Of a DNA stretch of 23,357 nucleotides, positions 16,659-23,357 are shown one piece after another. Made by a program: the position numbers and the translations under genes. Source of the stretch: a virus; IMG/VR virus record IMGVR_UViG_3300037246_001507, positions 1 through 23,357 of that record; one strand, given 5' to 3'. The notes under the pieces are model-generated. The model worked only from the letters and a program-made list of their open reading frames with translations, was not told the origin of the DNA and did no database searches. Positions within the stretch are counted from its first letter, which is position 1. The number at the start of each line of letters is the position of its first letter.

Positions 16659-17618
16659 TTAGCTCACCGCTGCGGAATAGAAATAACCTAACTCACTCGC
16701 CACGACCTTTTGGTCTATGGCTTCTTCGGCTTCCACCCTGTCCGACTCAATCCATTCCATGCGGAACCTCTTGATGCGGATGCCGTTCTTCCCTGTGCCG
16801 AACAGCCCGCTCCAATTGAATGTGTAGCCAGCGGACACGGTGTTGAGACCGGGACTGGGTGCCACATACATGAGCAGTGCGTTCTTCCCAAGGTTGAATT
16901 CGTACGAAGCCGTCTCGCCTTCCTGAGCGGTGTTCTTGATGGACCACGCGATGTAGGTCTTCTTCACACCGATGAGTGAGGAGATGAGGTCTTCGGACAC
17001 GACGCCCTTCTGGGTCCACTTGATGCGGTCCAGATAGTCAGGATGGTCCTGCAACTGGTCCCACACCTCGGCACCGAGGATGAGCGTGTTGGGCTTCTTT
17101 GCCGTGAGCTTCGCCATGGCAATGACACCGTCGCGCATGTCCCTGATGGGGTCGCTGTTGGCGTAATCGTCCCACTGTGTGAAGTTCGTACCGCCTGTAC
17201 GGTCGGTGCCCCACACGTTGGTCGTGAAATACTGGTTGACCCAAGCCTGTTCACGCCGTTGGAGCATGTGCTCCGTGACGAACTCTGTTGCGTCCCTGTC
17301 CATCGTGATGGGGGAATCCGCATTCGCCCGTACTTGGTCAGAGAGGTTGCGGTGGACGGCGTAGACATCACAGGAGAAGTCGTCCGTTCCGACCGCATAG
17401 CCTGAACCAGCCGACTCGCTGGAAGGGCCTCTGAGCTGGGCATCGGATTTGAACCAATATGCCCTGTCGTAAGTGAAATACTTATCACTTCGGTTCTGGA
17501 CGTTGACCGTCGGAAACACCTTGTCAGCGATGAACTCGCTGGAACTTTGGGTGAATCGAACACTGAGGTCAGTCAGTGCCCTATCGACATGAACGTCGGA
17601 TAGCGTTGGCTGAGGAAT
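16659..17618 (-). CDS. Major capsid protein, apparently starting at AUU
   Basis: As drawn this is 319 residues. The text after the start reads PQPTLSDVHVDRALTDLS, then FTQSSSEFIADKVFP, VNVQNRSDKY and later VWGTD, IRDMRDGVIAMAKLTAKKPNTLILGAEVWDQL, a familiar HK97-fold capsid pattern in actinophages and relatives. In this frame the first stop upstream is 27 bases before the chosen codon. There is no ATG, GTG or TTG until the GTG at 17519, which would remove 33 well-conserved-looking residues. The codon at 17618-17616 is ATT and sits five bases after GAGGT, so an AUU start is the best reading. A conserved hairpin (17638-17653) lies 19 bases upstream. A sequencing error at an original ATG cannot be excluded. 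Confidence 0.9.
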   Translation of the reverse strand: MPQPTLSDVHVDRALTDLSVRFTQSSSEFIADKVFPTVNVQNRSDKYFTYDRAYWFKSDAQLRGPSSESAGSGYAVGTDDFSCDVYAVHRNLSDQVRANADSPITMDRDATEFVTEHMLQRREQAWVNQYFTTNVWGTDRTGGTNFTQWDDYANSDPIRDMRDGVIAMAKLTAKKPNTLILGAEVWDQLQDHPDYLDRIKWTQKGVVSEDLISSLIGVKKTYIAWSIKNTAQEGETASYEFNLGKNALLMYVAPSPGLNTVSAGYTFNWSGLFGTGKNGIRIKRFRMEWIESDRVEAEEAIDQKVVASELGYFYSAAVS

Positions 17619-17685: not shown

Positions 17686-18069
17686 CTAGTTAGTGGAACC
17701 GATGTTCTGTAGGACCATCGTCAGGATGCGACCGGTCGAACCGGACGAACCGAACAGGACGGACCCACGAATCGCGTCGCCAGCGGTACGGACGCCTGCG
17801 CGTCCATCGGTCGTGTTACCGACCAAGTCGCCTGCCGACAGGGTGGACCCCGCTGCGTAGACCTTCGACACACCATCAATCATGATGGATGACGCCTGTC
17901 CGCCAGTGGGCTTGTTTTGGAGAATGCCTAGCACATCACCGTCTCCTGTTGAGAGGATGCTGAGGGCTGCCTTGCCGTCACCATTCACCCCCACGAAATG
18001 GAACTGTGCCGCAGACAAGTCTGTGGACGCTTCCAAGGTGATAGTTCTACCGGGAATCTCATAGGCCAT
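17686..18069 (-). CDS. Capsid decoration-like protein
   Basis: This encodes 127 residues rich in small and beta-forming residues. It begins MAYEIPGRTITLEASTDLS and has a repeated pattern of Gly-rich turns (GVNGDGKAAL, GVSKVYAAGSTLSAGDLVG). Such proteins between scaffold and major capsid genes are usually trimeric head decoration or DUF2190-like proteins. The ribosome site AAGGAGG is five bases from ATG. The conserved hairpin at 18095-18111 lies 25 bases upstream and overlaps the scaffold stop codon. I infer that it binds the outside of the expanded capsid. The family assignment is by feel and context, not by search. Confidence 0.75.
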   Translation of the reverse strand: MAYEIPGRTITLEASTDLSAAQFHFVGVNGDGKAALSILSTGDGDVLGILQNKPTGGQASSIMIDGVSKVYAAGSTLSAGDLVGNTTDGRAGVRTAGDAIRGSVLFGSSGSTGRILTMVLQNIGSTN

Positions 18070-18094: not shown

Positions 18095-18111
18095 GGCGCT
18101 CAGAGGCGCTA
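18095..18111 (-). repeat. Conserved intergenic hairpin, site B
   Basis: The transcribed strand reads TAGCGCCTCTGAGCGCC, with stem GCGC/GCGC and a six-base loop. The scaffold stop codon TAG is its first three bases. It is 25 bases upstream of the decoration gene start. Confidence 0.7.
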
Positions 18112-18720
18112 CTGCCTTGTCCGTGACCGTTGTTCCCGGGTGTGCTCGTCGTAGAGTTCCGGGTTGTTCTCCCACGCCTGAGCGTTCGCATCAGCTTCGG
18201 AGAGCTGAGGGTTCGCATCTCGGTAGGACTTCGCGATGGTCTCAATCTGCACGTCAACGTCAGTCGACTTGTTGATGGAAGAGCCAAGCTCTTCGTAGAG
18301 GGTCGCTGTGATTTCCTGCGTCGAGGCGGCCACGAAAGCCTTCTCGAACAGGTCAGCGTCCTCTGGTGAGACATCTGCGAGTCTACGGAGAGCGGGACCG
18401 ATTTCCGCGGGGTCACCGAGTCCATCGAAAGCGCGAGCCTTCGTGATGTACTCCGCGTCTGCGGCGTCGTGCTCTGCCTTGGTGACCTTCTCTTCAAGCT
18501 CTGAGAGCTTGTCAATCTGTCCCTTGATGATGGCAGCGGACTCATCATCGAGGCCGTCGAGGGCCTTCTCAAACGGTTCACGGTTGTCGACCACCGTTAC
18601 GGGGTCGGTCTGGGCCTCTTCGAGACTCTTCGTGAGGTCCTCCACGGAGTCTTGAAGGTCTCCGATGTAGTCCACGATTTCGTCTGGAAGGTCAGCCACT
18701 AGGGCGTCAATTGCGTCCAC
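18109..18720 (-). CDS. Capsid scaffold-like protein
   Basis: This encodes 203 residues and is strongly acidic and helical, with a predicted coiled coil from about residue 15 to 90 (LQDSVEDLTKSLEEA, LSELEEKVTKAEHDA). It then has an ARAFDGL...LRRLADV segment and a C-terminal part with QLSEADANAQAWENNPELY. This architecture and the position right before decoration and major capsid genes are typical of the scaffolds of XkdF-type prohead systems. The start is GTG at 18720, preceded by GGAGGAAACAAC. The conserved hairpin at 18743-18758 lies 22 bases upstream. The stop codon TAG lies within the hairpin copy that precedes the next gene. It probably guides capsid assembly and is removed or cleaved by the protease. 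Confidence 0.85.
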   Translation of the reverse strand: MDAIDALVADLPDEIVDYIGDLQDSVEDLTKSLEEAQTDPVTVVDNREPFEKALDGLDDESAAIIKGQIDKLSELEEKVTKAEHDAADAEYITKARAFDGLGDPAEIGPALRRLADVSPEDADLFEKAFVAASTQEITATLYEELGSSINKSTDVDVQIETIAKSYRDANPQLSEADANAQAWENNPELYDEHTREQRSRTRQ

Positions 18721-18807: not shown

Positions 18808-20574
18808 TCACGCGAAAGGTTTGCCGCTGGGCGGCTTGCCTTTTGCCTTGATATCGGTCGCGATGCGTTCCTTTTTCTTGTTGGGAGGAGGCGGTACACC
18901 CGGTTTGGCTGCTGGGAGTCCAGTCGCCTTTGGAGGTGGAATCTTCCCCTTCGGTGTCTCAACGGGACGCTCGCCACCGGGAGTTCCGGGGCCGAGAGGT
19001 GGTCCGCCATCGCTCTTGGGGGGCGAGTCGGGGACCAGCTCATCAGGGGCCAACGCACCTTCGGTCGGAGTCTGGGAAGGGTCAGCCTGACCCGGTGCTG
19101 TCGGCCCTGCCTCAGACTTACCCGGGGCAGGCGTACCGGAGGGGACTGCGCTCTTCGTGTCCGTCGGCTTCCCAAGGACATCTTTCAGTTTTGGCAGTTC
19201 CTTGCCGGACTTGGTGGGAGGGAATGCTTTGCTGAGCGGCGGTCTGTCCTTCAACATTTCGTTCAGCTCAGCCTTCACCTTGCGTGCCGTATCGCCCTTC
19301 CACGTGCGTGCGTTGGAGAGGAAATACGCGACCACGGACGAACCGCTGTCGTAGAAGAACGGTTCATGGATGGAACCCATTTGGCTCATCGCATCGAGGT
19401 ACGGCACCGCGGCGAAATTGACCTTCTTCCAGTCCGACCGAATCTCACTAGCGATGCTGCTGAGAGGTCGACGTGGAGGACTGTCAAACTGGCCCTTGTC
19501 TCGTCCTGTCAGACCGACAGGGGGACGAGAGGCTCCACCACGACCGCCAGCATGGTTCTGTTGGTTGTGACCCTTCCCACCGGGAGTGTGCTTCTTAATC
19601 CTGCTGGCGATATCAGCCTTCAACACTCTGAGGTCACCGGGGAACGAACCATGACGAACCTTCCCCTTTCCCCTGTTCTTCTCTTTGCGTGGCACAATCT
19701 TTCCTGACTTGATGTTGTCGAGATGGGTCTGGCGGTTCTTGTCCTTCTGGTCGGGGTCCGGCTGTTGGAGCCATTCGCCAAACGTAGAGGCGTGTCCACT
19801 GTCAGCACGTCCGACACCGGGTGGATTGTTCTTGGCCTTCTTATTGGCCTGTATATCAATCTCTTCATGAATCTGTTGACGGTTGAGTCCGGGGTTTTCG
19901 GCCCTCACCCTGTCGAACTCTGCCTGTGATGGCGGAGTCGGCCCAATCGTCAGAGGCCCGTCTGGCAACGCGTCCTGTTCGAACTGTGCTTGGTCGATGT
20001 CGTCGTCACCGAAACCACCGACACGGTCGACGGACCCGACTCCGGGCACGTTACGGCGCAAGTGGCCTATCACTGCGCTCTGGGCGTCACGTTCCGACAG
20101 GCCCTCTGCCATCTTGGCCTTCATGGCCTTGTTTGCCGCACCGAAGGCTTGCTTGTATTTGGCCTTTGCTTTTGTACTGAGCGGTTTCTTGCGTCCTCCA
20201 CCAGACCCGGCTTTGCCATGGTTCTGCTGGTTATGGGACTGTCCACCCGGCTCATGCTTTTCGACAGGAGCACTCCCCGCGGAGGTCGAACTCTCAGCGG
20301 CATTCCGCTCAGGGAACGCGCTCCCCTTGGCACCCTTCTTCTTCTTCTTCTTCTCGTCCACGTCCTTGGGCATCGGGGCAATCCCGGTGCGCTTCACAGG
20401 CGGGGGGCCGTTCTTGAGCTGGGTATCTTCCGGGTAGCCCTGCTTCATGTTTTTGGCTATCACCGCGCGAGCGTCGTAACCCTTGTGGATGACGATGTCG
20501 GCGTATTGGTTTGCACCACGGTCTACAAGGTCTACCCGGTCGATATCCAGATTCTTGAGTTTGAACCGTTTCAT
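18808..20574 (-). CDS. Large low-complexity head-module protein with two KHxPGG/HNQQNH motifs
   Basis: This encodes 588 residues. The N-terminus has an LDIDRVDLVDRGAN signature (about 9-22), a form I associate with phage capsid-assembly proteins of the XkdF neighbourhood. A poly-Lys run sits at 75-80. Two near-identical motifs, KHEPGGQSHNQQNHG (106-120) and KHTPGGKGHNQQNHA (328-342), match the one in the RuvB-protease protein. A compact folded-looking segment lies at 373-442 (EIRSDWKK, PYLDAM, YFLSNARTW, KAELNEML). The last 140 residues are Pro/Gly/Lys-rich and probably disordered. It starts by an ATGA overlap with the basic protein and is followed by an 87-base leader with hairpins. It could be a scaffold- or portal-associated polyprotein that the protease cuts. 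No enzymatic motif is recognised. Confidence 0.75.
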   Translation of the reverse strand: MKRFKLKNLDIDRVDLVDRGANQYADIVIHKGYDARAVIAKNMKQGYPEDTQLKNGPPPVKRTGIAPMPKDVDEKKKKKKGAKGSAFPERNAAESSTSAGSAPVEKHEPGGQSHNQQNHGKAGSGGGRKKPLSTKAKAKYKQAFGAANKAMKAKMAEGLSERDAQSAVIGHLRRNVPGVGSVDRVGGFGDDDIDQAQFEQDALPDGPLTIGPTPPSQAEFDRVRAENPGLNRQQIHEEIDIQANKKAKNNPPGVGRADSGHASTFGEWLQQPDPDQKDKNRQTHLDNIKSGKIVPRKEKNRGKGKVRHGSFPGDLRVLKADIASRIKKHTPGGKGHNQQNHAGGRGGASRPPVGLTGRDKGQFDSPPRRPLSSIASEIRSDWKKVNFAAVPYLDAMSQMGSIHEPFFYDSGSSVVAYFLSNARTWKGDTARKVKAELNEMLKDRPPLSKAFPPTKSGKELPKLKDVLGKPTDTKSAVPSGTPAPGKSEAGPTAPGQADPSQTPTEGALAPDELVPDSPPKSDGGPPLGPGTPGGERPVETPKGKIPPPKATGLPAAKPGVPPPPNKKKERIATDIKAKGKPPSGKPFA

Positions 20575-20888
20575 TGCGCTGCCTTCTTCACCTTCTTGAA
20601 GTTCTCGGTGGCTTCACTGGCGACTGCCCGTGCTGCCCGTAGGTCGGCTCCGGCTGTGTCGATAAGAGCTGCGCGTGAGGCAAAGTCTGAGAAGTCAGCT
20701 TTCGCACGGTTGAGGCCACGACCGGCAACGTTGACCTGTTCGTCGGCTGCGTTCATTGCGAGACGCGCGGCATACACGTCATCGTACTGGGGCTTGGGGG
20801 GTGGAGTGGACTTGGCCTTAGGTTTGGCCTTGGCCGTCACGTTCTTGGCTGTGACCTTTTTGGTCGTCGCCTTCTTCTTCTGCGCCAT
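20571..20888 (-). CDS. Small basic Lys/Ala/Pro-rich protein of the head module
   Basis: This encodes 105 residues. The first 40 are dominated by Lys, Ala, Thr and Pro (MAQKKKATTKK, several TAKxK units, a PPPK tract), resembling histone-tail-like or nucleic-acid-binding segments. The rest is an alanine-rich, probably helical region ending in FKKVKKAAQ. The start at 20888 is chosen because AAGGAG stands six bases upstream; an upstream in-frame start (20915) would lie inside the conserved hairpin. The stop overlaps the next gene as ATGA. The function is not recognised. Its place between protease and scaffold, and its charge, would suit DNA-neutralising internal head material or a scaffold accessory, which is inference only. 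Confidence 0.75.
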   Translation of the reverse strand: MAQKKKATTKKVTAKNVTAKAKPKAKSTPPPKPQYDDVYAARLAMNAADEQVNVAGRGLNRAKADFSDFASRAALIDTAGADLRAARAVASEATENFKKVKKAAQ

Positions 20889-20906
20889 CGAAGTCTCCTT
20901 CGTTGT

Positions 20907-20922
20907 GGCGCTCAAGGCGCTC
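20907..20922 (-). repeat. Conserved intergenic hairpin, site A
   Basis: The transcribed strand reads GAGCGCCTTGAGCGCC, a GCGC/GCGC stem with loop CTTGA. It lies 18 bases upstream of the basic-protein start at 20888 and directly before its ribosome site. A further half-like GAGTGCC is at 20932-20938. Sites A and C share TGAGCGCCACAA. Confidence 0.7.
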
Positions 20923-20943: not shown

Positions 20944-22893
20944 CTACACGGCTTCGAGCTGCGCCCTTCCTTGTATCGAGAACATGGAGCGTTCACCACG
21001 TTCGACCTTGTCCCAGTCCTCTGGGGGTACCCGGAATCCTATCCACCATTTGCCGAGCATGTCCTCTGGGAATCCGCCCTTGGCAATTTTGTCCTCTGTC
21101 ACGATGAGCGATTCGACGAGTTCGCCGAAGCCTTCACCCTTGTGGTCGTCACCCGTTTTACGGTATTTGACAGCGAAGTTGTAGGCCGCTGATTCGAGTT
21201 CTTCGACATCAATCATGTGGCCTTGGTGGTCGACCACTTGGTTGCCTTTGTCGAACGTGACGTTTGCCCATCCGAATACGAGGTTCTGTCTCTTGTCGGA
21301 TTTGGCAATTTCGATGGGTGCGGAGAAGGAGGCGAGGACTCCACCCAACCGTTTCGCGACCTCGAAGTCTCCGAGGTCGTCGCGCCCGTATGTGTCGAGG
21401 TGCATGATGCCAGCTTGGGTCAGGGTACGTCCCTTGGGCGTTCTGTTGATGAAACCTTGCCGGAGGAGGTATGGCTCCACAACAGACGATATGGTGGTCT
21501 CATCGAGTCCTGTGGAAGCTGACAGCGTGTTGATGCCTGCGGTTCCCAAGTCTTGGAGGGAACCCATGACACGCCGGTCCTCAGAGCTAAGGCCACGAGC
21601 GTCGATGTCCCAGAGGTTCAGCACTTTGTCTGTAGTGGCCATGTCGAGTGTGCCGCCACGTGCAGAGATGTAATCGTTGACACGGCGCACGAGACGGTTC
21701 GCGATACGGGGGGTTCCGCGGGACCTGCTCGCGATGGCGTTGGCCACATCCGAACCGATGTCCAGACCCTTCTTCGCTGCTGTCACCTTCACGATTTCGG
21801 CCAGCTCCGCGTCCTTGTAGTAGGAGAGCTGCTCAACTGCGCCGAACCTGTCACGGAGGGGTTTGGCAACACCCTCGGGGTTCGTCGTTGCACCAAGGAA
21901 CGTGATGTCAGGAGTCTTGACCCTGAACGTCCCGCGACCCTCAATCTGAACGTCCATTTCGCCGTCCTCCATGATGGGGAACATCATCTCGTCCACCTTC
22001 TGAGGGAGCGCATGGATTTCGTCGATGAACAGGATGTCACCATCCTCCATCTTTGCTAGGACGCTTTGCAAGGATTCACGGTCCTTGAGTTCTGGCCCAG
22101 TGACAACTTCGATATGGGCACCCATCTCATTTGCAAGGGCTTTGGCCATGGTGGTTTTCCCGAGTCCCGGGGGACCGGAGAACATGATGTGGTCGAGCGG
22201 TCTGCCTTCCTTGCGTGCCGCGTCAACCATGATGCTGAGACGCTCACGTACACGTGACTGGCCTGAGAGGTCCGCAAGGTTCTTGGGACGTTCGACTCGC
22301 CCTCCGGGGCGCTGGGCATCGGGGATGGCGGCTGATGACGCCGGGGGGGAACCGGCTGCCGGTTCAGTACCGGCTCCGCCACCTCCTTGGGTGATAGTTG
22401 CGCCAGTGCCACCGGAGGACGAAGTATCGGGTGCCGACCCCTGTGACCAACTGCCGTGGAGGTCTTGGTCATGGGAGACGCCTCCCGGGGTGTGCTTCTC
22501 AACGGGGGCACCTTCGGTTGGGTCGACAGCGGGGGGAGCTACGACGAGGCCAGATTCGATGACATCGTCTGGGTCGTCCTGACCGCCTTCACCTAGTAAT
22601 TCCATCAGGGTCGGTTTCTCCGACTCGTCGAACTGGGGGGTGGTGTCCTCTTGGGGTCCGATGGGGGTGCCAGCAAACGCTTGGACAAACAGGGCGTATT
22701 CATCCTTGGTGCAGTCGTAGATGGTGCACGCCGATTGAAGCTCGATGCCTGTGCCATCAGAGTCGACAAGTTCGTCGATGAACGGGCTGGCCTCGGGCTG
22801 GACGGGGGTGAGCTGACGTATCTGGTTCAGGGCCTCTTGGATTTCGATTGACCCCTCGGCGTATTGCTGGATGGTCTCAGTGATGGCACCCAT
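20944..22893 (-). CDS. RuvB-like AAA+ ATPase fused to XkdF-like prohead protease
   Basis: This is a 649-residue protein in one uninterrupted frame. Residues 1-130 are unrecognised and acidic. A KHTPGG..HDQ..HG motif lies at 133-147, followed by a Gly/Ser/Pro linker to about 200. Residues about 201-499 read as full-length RuvB: Walker A GPPGLGKTT (240-248), Walker B ILFIDEIH (287-294), sensor 1 GATT (334-337), RDRFG with the arginine finger (347-351), sensor 2 RGTPRIANRL (392-401) and a C-terminal winged helix ending near TPKGR. Residues about 521-649 resemble the XkdF serine protease (GWANV, then DDH with His584, LVES with Ser595, WWIGF, FSIQG). I prefer the start at 22893 because GGAG lies six bases upstream and it overlaps the previous stop as TGATG; the ATG at 22905 has no ribosome site. 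The protease half should mature the prohead. The role of the motor half is unknown, and no RuvA is seen here. Confidence 0.9.
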   Translation of the reverse strand: MGAITETIQQYAEGSIEIQEALNQIRQLTPVQPEASPFIDELVDSDGTGIELQSACTIYDCTKDEYALFVQAFAGTPIGPQEDTTPQFDESEKPTLMELLGEGGQDDPDDVIESGLVVAPPAVDPTEGAPVEKHTPGGVSHDQDLHGSWSQGSAPDTSSSGGTGATITQGGGGAGTEPAAGSPPASSAAIPDAQRPGGRVERPKNLADLSGQSRVRERLSIMVDAARKEGRPLDHIMFSGPPGLGKTTMAKALANEMGAHIEVVTGPELKDRESLQSVLAKMEDGDILFIDEIHALPQKVDEMMFPIMEDGEMDVQIEGRGTFRVKTPDITFLGATTNPEGVAKPLRDRFGAVEQLSYYKDAELAEIVKVTAAKKGLDIGSDVANAIASRSRGTPRIANRLVRRVNDYISARGGTLDMATTDKVLNLWDIDARGLSSEDRRVMGSLQDLGTAGINTLSASTGLDETTISSVVEPYLLRQGFINRTPKGRTLTQAGIMHLDTYGRDDLGDFEVAKRLGGVLASFSAPIEIAKSDKRQNLVFGWANVTFDKGNQVVDHQGHMIDVEELESAAYNFAVKYRKTGDDHKGEGFGELVESLIVTEDKIAKGGFPEDMLGKWWIGFRVPPEDWDKVERGERSMFSIQGRAQLEAV

Positions 22894-23357
22894 CAGGAAC
22901 TCCATATCAATTCTGTTGGACGTTGTTCGGTCTTCTGCCGCTCCACGTTGAGTGGGAACGTGCGGTACCAGTGGGACTCGTTGGCCACGGCGATATATGC
23001 GGTGAAGTTGTCGTTGATTACGTCACTGTCACCTGACCTCATACTCTCGATGAAGGTCTCGGGGACGATGCGTCCGAGTTCGCCTTCTGACCCACCGTTG
23101 GCTGCGCGAGCAAGGGCCGAGACTTTCGCTTCGTCGACCGATACGTCTGCGTGGACGACGGTGAGGCTGTACCCCTCAGACTTTATGCTGTCCATCACCT
23201 TGAGTGTCTTGGCTTGGTCCTTCCCTGTCACGTCGAGGATGATGTTGGTGCCTTGGGCCATGGCAGAGGCTTCCCACACCTTCCTCATCGAGGACGATTC
23301 CTCGTGCACCATGGAAGAGAGTTCGGAACCTGTGACCCCCTCGATTTCTGGTGGGGT
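22893..23357 (-). CDS. Zeta-toxin-like P-loop kinase domain protein, C-terminal part (partial)
   Basis: The reading frame is open to the right edge, so the N-terminus, including any Walker A, is outside the window; 154 codons are visible. The segment PPEI...HEESSSM, followed by NIILDVTG and then a GY-V strand, an alanine/arginine helix and GRIVPE, matches the order of conserved parts in the second half of zeta-toxin/UDP-GlcNAc-kinase-like domains as I know them. About 60 residues of unrecognised sequence follow. The stop TGA overlaps the next start as TGATG, so translation is probably coupled to the RuvB-protease fusion. In phages such kinase domains occur in MuF/portal-region polyvalent proteins, which fits this position before the protease. 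Whether it acts on nucleotides, sugars or host targets cannot be told here. An internal ATG at 23312 is not the likely true start. Confidence 0.7.
   Translation of the reverse strand, partial: TPPEIEGVTGSELSSMVHEESSSMRKVWEASAMAQGTNIILDVTGKDQAKTLKVMDSIKSEGYSLTVVHADVSVDEAKVSALARAANGGSEGELGRIVPETFIESMRSGDSDVINDNFTAYIAVANESHWYRTFPLNVERQKTEQRPTELIWSS

Follow-up and report, generated by a model that had tools for sequence, protein, structure and literature searches.

A complete RuvB motor joined to an XkdF-type prohead protease in a phage head operon

We describe a phage gene whose product carries a complete RuvB followed by a prohead protease of the XkdF type, and analysis of the sequence confirms both parts in one uninterrupted frame. 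The reading that we favor, at roughly even chances, is that it encodes a head protein of the polyvalent type with RuvB as cargo and the prohead protease at its C-terminus, which would be packaged, cut and delivered together with the phage DNA. That enzymes can be attached to head proteins in order to be delivered is already known, and what is new here is RuvB as the cargo and its pairing with this protease; the short tag found ahead of RuvB and the range of XkdF-linked cargo described below also look unreported, judging from an incomplete literature search. If the motor is delivered with phage DNA, virion proteins would start recombination or fork repair before any phage gene expression. Moreover, the swapping of RuvB, UDG, 2H phosphoesterase, ParB-like and Zeta domains beside one head protease and a common tag offers a sequence handle for virion cargo, making the question of injected enzymes testable across many uncultured phages.

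The fusion gene and its place in the head operon

The window analyzed here is an entire linear IMG/VR virus record (IMGVR_UViG_3300037246_001507; 23,357 bases), all recognized genes of which lie on the minus strand and whose head operon, the record being a whole linear contig, comes without its upstream end. The fusion gene (20944..22893, minus strand) is an uninterrupted open frame of 649 codons for amino acids with a likely start at the ATG at 22893, where a GGAG lies upstream and a TGATG overlaps with the stop of the preceding ORF; a further in-frame ATG is found at 22905, and the stop codon ends at 20944. Pfam profiles cover the chain with RuvB_N (6.8e-48, residues 202-356), AAA_lid_4 (1e-18, 359-431), RuvB_C (9e-19, 433-499) and Peptidase_S78_2/XkdF (1.2e-14, 528-645). 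The first-pass annotation had read a full-length RuvB and an XkdF-type prohead protease in one frame, and the domain profiles, the motifs and the structure matches of the RuvB part all agree with it, with the profiles returning the RuvB family rather than another AAA+ family for the first part and a protease for the second. GC3 is even along the whole gene (0.62-0.70), and the codon-usage scores of the RuvB and XkdF parts (0.166 and 0.154, respectively) agree with those of other phage genes of the record.

Directly upstream, the contig end cuts an ORF for a kinase of the Zeta_toxin family, of which the C-terminal part remains (22893..23357, minus strand; PF06414, 1.8e-11). The fusion gene is followed on the same strand by a small Lys/Ala-rich ORF with no family match (20571..20915), a disordered, scaffold-like protein that carries two copies of the tag (18808..20574), the likely C-terminal part of a scaffold (18109..18720; phrog_13547 and phrog_17741), a head protein of the decoration or scaffold type (17686..18069; phrog_673) and the major capsid protein (16659..17519; phrog_1005, 6.7e-74), which is 42-44% identical to capsid proteins of Arthrobacter phages. 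The fusion gene occupies the usual position of XkdF before the scaffold and major capsid genes, and phage record MT835491 shows the same order of XkdF, scaffold, small head protein and capsid; XkdF there is a protein of its own with 156 amino acids, preceded by terminase, portal and MuF (names that we read from the sequences). At another locus with a related capsid protein (L213), a tagged Zeta ORF directly precedes XkdF just like in the record studied here. Near the tail genes at the other end of the window, 234-1331 and 1241-2278 both match phrog_2448 (function unknown) in an apparent tandem duplication.

The RuvB part

Profile, alignment and model show a complete RuvB at residues 200-505 (21379..22296, minus strand), composed of AAA+ large domain, lid and winged helix in the same order as in bacterial RuvB (PF05496, PF17864, PF05491; PDB 7x5b, 1in4, 7pbl), with which it shares ca. 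40-45% identity. Its motifs comprise the Walker A GPPGLGKTT (residues 240-248; 22150..22176, minus strand), DEIH (291-294), GATT (334-337), RDRFG (347-351), RGTPRIANRL (392-401) and the DNA-contact wing RTPKGR (484-489; compared to RTPRGR). The residues of Walker A and B, sensors 1 and 2, the arginine finger and the DNA-contact wing are all present, and an alignment that includes 23 RuvBs of viral contigs shows no variation in the catalytic columns. AlphaFold2 models residues ca. 200-500 with pLDDT 92-98, and Foldseek aligns this model to solved RuvBs with target TM-scores mostly of 0.82-0.94; the best solved relatives of the N-terminal enzyme part are likewise RuvBs (E 5.6e-75). Residues 103-190 and 507-545 fall below a pLDDT of 50, as is the case for disordered linkers. 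By its motifs and predicted fold, the RuvB of the fusion is intact.

Unlike bacterial RuvB, this motor is fused to a protease. In bacteria, ruvA near ruvB is usual though not universal; no RuvA match was obtained among the scanned ORFs of the record, which is a fragment, and the host could supply RuvA. A further difference concerns the presensor-1 hairpin bound by domain III of RuvA (PMC9477746), which in the stretch of residues 308-337 (21883..21972, minus strand) measures 23 residues compared to a constant 26 in cellular-type RuvBs, and this shortening by three residues makes cooperation with the RuvA of the host uncertain. Solo phage RuvBs are similarly variable in the length of this hairpin, as seen across many viral contigs with RuvB (L019-L050), one further viral RuvB (L051:1774-3660) being split after the Walker B region by ca. 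315 intein-like residues. In a maximum-likelihood tree, the RuvB of the fusion sits alone on a long branch, apart from the cellular-type group and among poorly resolved phage RuvBs, a position that makes a recent capture from the host unlikely. Because all motor residues have been kept despite this long divergence, selection on activity seems likely.

The protease part

The XkdF / Peptidase_S78_2 prohead protease domain (residues 528-645; 20959..21312, minus strand) is recognized by its profile, conserved residues and predicted-structure match. It scores 54.9 bits with Peptidase_S78_2 (PF14550) against a cut-off of 24, and its model, with a pLDDT of 73, aligns with predicted viral XkdF proteins as well as the prohead protease of HHTV-2; the comparison to solved structures gave no significant match, so that a herpes-assemblin-like fold is putative here. 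The candidate catalytic residues initially proposed were His584 and Ser595, and only the former stood up to alignments of XkdF domains. While His584 (21142..21144, minus strand) and the serine of an MFSIQG motif, Ser639 (20977..20979, minus strand), are invariant across 33 XkdF domains and also in a wider set of seven, Ser595 is well conserved in close relatives and replaced by Asn in two distant members of that wider set. The alignments indicate that Ser639 rather than Ser595 is likely the catalytic serine. No consensus for cleavage by the protease could be derived.

The profile, the invariant His584 and Ser639, and the gene position before the scaffold and capsid genes are all as in XkdF-type prohead proteases (PF14550). 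However, a typical XkdF is either a short stand-alone protein (ca. 130-180 amino acids) or fused to the scaffold, whereas ca. 520 residues including RuvB precede it here.

Searches for related fusions

Among the matches listed, no second RuvB-XkdF protein was found in our scans of viral, phage and genome collections, and no report joining RuvB with a prohead protease was found in the literature searched (most subscription journals fell outside its scope), in keeping with the initial statement that no phage head protease is known to carry RuvB. Scans of viral contigs with the whole protein, the XkdF part or the RuvB part singly gave no relative, and two scans with RuvB alignments returned at least 44 and 10 loci, respectively, with RuvB or related AAA+ proteins, none of them fused to XkdF among the matches listed. 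Of 35 records from the RuvB scans that we tested, a single one (L049) has an XkdF elsewhere, again among the matches listed. RuvB is absent from the 49 related viral records examined, and the sole match in the genome contig collection is an unrelated AAA protein. Since these scans worked by short patterns, more cases of RuvB-XkdF may exist. We rejected many RuvB matches in the phage collection as phage genes because they look like host DNA, with ruvA neighbors or cellular-type sequences.

What the search for chains with both domains brought up instead are other enzymes joined to XkdF. A 2H phosphoesterase with a C-terminal XkdF is encoded by Arthrobacter phages and by ValentiniPuff, a Microbacterium phage; the capsid proteins of these phages are related. 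The genes concerned (gp18 of Laroye and gp87 of Ottawa, both Arthrobacter phages, and gp7 of ValentiniPuff) lie between the portal/MuF and capsid genes and share with RuvB-XkdF the order of N-terminal enzyme and C-terminal XkdF, but they differ in carrying another enzyme and no tag that we could see. Some 2H enzymes degrade immune nucleotides, so that an early counter-defense role of 2H-XkdF is conceivable. The annotations of such Arthrobacter and Microbacterium phage genes (L139:4520-5641, L141:3043-4182 and L143:2863-4035) name only an RNA ligase, an aldolase or a capsid maturation protease. Two Gordonia phages, Stultus and Lilbeanie, were dismissed as further cases, with a 2H domain in their annotated maturation protease but no match to XkdF. 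Similarly, the "DNA methyltransferase" of phrog_1530 in a Lactococcus phage (L005:4878-5927; named likewise in GenBank) is no methyltransferase-XkdF fusion but a misannotated XkdF protease with a coiled scaffold.

Beyond 2H phosphoesterases, we found XkdF joined to a domain of the uracil-DNA glycosylase (UDG) superfamily (L205, 6516-8522), a rubrerythrin with UDG and XkdF (L200, 3751-5880), ChaB-XkdF (L103 and L113), the C-terminal domain of a superoxide dismutase (SOD) with XkdF (L111, 5341-6408) and the tag followed by a ParB-like part and XkdF (L315 and L256), the ParB assignment being made by eye from an IDGHHRWAA-type motif without a Pfam call. The order is reversed at two loci (L169 and L208), with a Zeta domain following XkdF. 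At the level of sequence, the joining of enzymes to XkdF is not unique to the phage studied here, while the pairing with RuvB is unique within the collections searched.

A short tag shared by head-operon proteins

Pattern searches revealed a tag motif ahead of RuvB, KHTPGGVSHDQDLHGSW (residues 133-149; 22447..22497, minus strand), of which the scaffold-like protein carries two further copies, KHEPGGQSHNQQNHG (20215..20259, minus strand) and KHTPGGKGHNQQNHA (19549..19593, minus strand). Its general form is KH-x-HDQ-x-[ST]-HG-x-[WR]. Among 529,361 residues from loci whose capsid proteins are related, the pattern KH-x(1-7)-H[DN]Q-xx-H[GA] was found 93 times, compared to 0.0 times in 20 shuffles. 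The count over all loci comes to at least 533 tags, spread over 352 ORFs and 132 loci; a single ORF holds up to five of them, and their median spacing is 210 residues. As a frequency this total is biased, because it includes the 120 stretches listed by a scan with the tag's own DNA pattern.

The carriers (L213, L217, L220, L224, L153, L156, L180, L184, L202, L157 and L243-L321) are large head-operon proteins of environmental phages with the tag repeated between domains. Of 93 tagged ORFs scanned, 19 contain an ADP-ribosyltransferase, and GNAT, Zeta and SprT-like domains are found as well; the tags precede or separate such domains as in L157, with a tag at 883 and an ADP-ribosyltransferase at 918-1092. 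A tblastn search with the bare tag gave no match, which carries little weight for a query of 20 residues, and its letters were not found in the same literature search. The tag may be of wider reach than the RuvB-XkdF fusion itself. Tentatively, we suggest that it could be a general signal, for head targeting or as the site at which XkdF would free each domain, in a large modular system through which a single phage lineage fills its heads with many enzymes; RuvB would then be one cargo among others and hence an injected motor, though we consider this somewhat doubtful.

Proposed role as head cargo

The genes for phage polyvalent proteins lie among virion genes, and the proteins are presumed to be injected (Iyer et al. 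2017, PMC5512222). Their assemblin-like peptidase is always C-terminal, ADP-ribosyltransferases and GNAT are among their known classes, and an Sms/RadA branch-migration domain comparable to RuvB as a cargo is known from them (PMC5512222). Like these proteins, the RuvB-XkdF chain has several unrelated enzymatic domains with the peptidase at the C-terminus, is encoded in a head operon among virion genes and has effector-type neighbors; the text of that paper mentions neither RuvB nor the KH-HDQ-HG tag. In giant phage SPN3US, the prohead protease cuts head proteins, many of which are packaged and ejected (PMC10052503). The internal proteins of phage T4 are a similar case, although cargo in these phages is generally not fused to the protease itself.

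It is on the precedents of polyvalent proteins and of SPN3US that we base the proposal of delivered head cargo. Directly visible in our record are the intact RuvB and protease signature, the tag ahead of RuvB, the flexible linkers on both sides of it and the location in a head operon. By analogy, we infer that the chain would enter the procapsid via its XkdF protease and perhaps also the tag, and that at head maturation the protease would also cut the disordered linkers (residues ca. 103-190 and 507-545) to free RuvB inside the head. RuvB would then be ejected with the phage DNA and might drive branch migration or fork remodeling on the incoming genome, alone or together with host RuvA. The first-pass annotation had already listed, among possible roles, a motor that the protease takes along into the head or sets free and that then acts on injected DNA, and the other enzymes found in the same place and the tag before RuvB support this idea, with packaging and delivery themselves as the inferred part. 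Several points speak against delivery: A RuvB hexamer of ca. 200 kDa is bulky for exit from the head unless it leaves as unfolded monomers, the shortened presensor-1 hairpin puts cooperation with host RuvA in doubt, no cleavage consensus emerged for the protease, and only one example of RuvB-XkdF is known, on a 23 kb contig with its upstream end cut.

The main rival to cargo delivery is that RuvB acts in the producing cell at the stage of packaging, tethered to the protease or procapsid near the portal, where it would remove or remodel branched replicating DNA to allow its packaging without ever being delivered; the first-pass annotation had listed such a role too. Phage concatemers are branched, ATP for RuvB is plentiful in the producing cell, the motor motifs are intact and fusion to the protease would put the motor at the procapsid. 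Nevertheless, we regard this as rather unlikely, given that this slot is filled elsewhere by domains without a common packaging function (UDG, 2H phosphoesterase, ParB-like, ChaB and Zeta), that the tag is common to effector-type domains and that the protease usually sits in the procapsid interior. Slightly less probable still is an accident of expression or localization, with RuvB either cut off early to work like any other soluble helicase of the late stage or carried along as a passenger without present role. This would fit the single case found, the frequent XkdF-gene fusions in this lineage and the many solo RuvBs of phages, but is at odds with the preservation of every motor residue over a long divergence and with the tag ahead of RuvB.

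We see very little chance that a bacterial ruvB was joined to a phage protease gene by an artefact of assembly or binning, as one might suspect for one metagenomic contig of which no second copy was found in our scans. The uniform GC3 and codon usage, the single frame with its overlapping start, the tag within the same chain and a RuvB far from cellular ones with a hairpin of non-cellular length make an assembly error unlikely. Only marginally more credible is a structural role in which the ring would serve as a template or plug while the head assembles: RuvB does form hexamer rings, but the hexameric plug suggested early on found no support. Unrelated enzymes that form no rings are found in the same place in relatives, and the residues for ATPase activity and DNA contact are kept.
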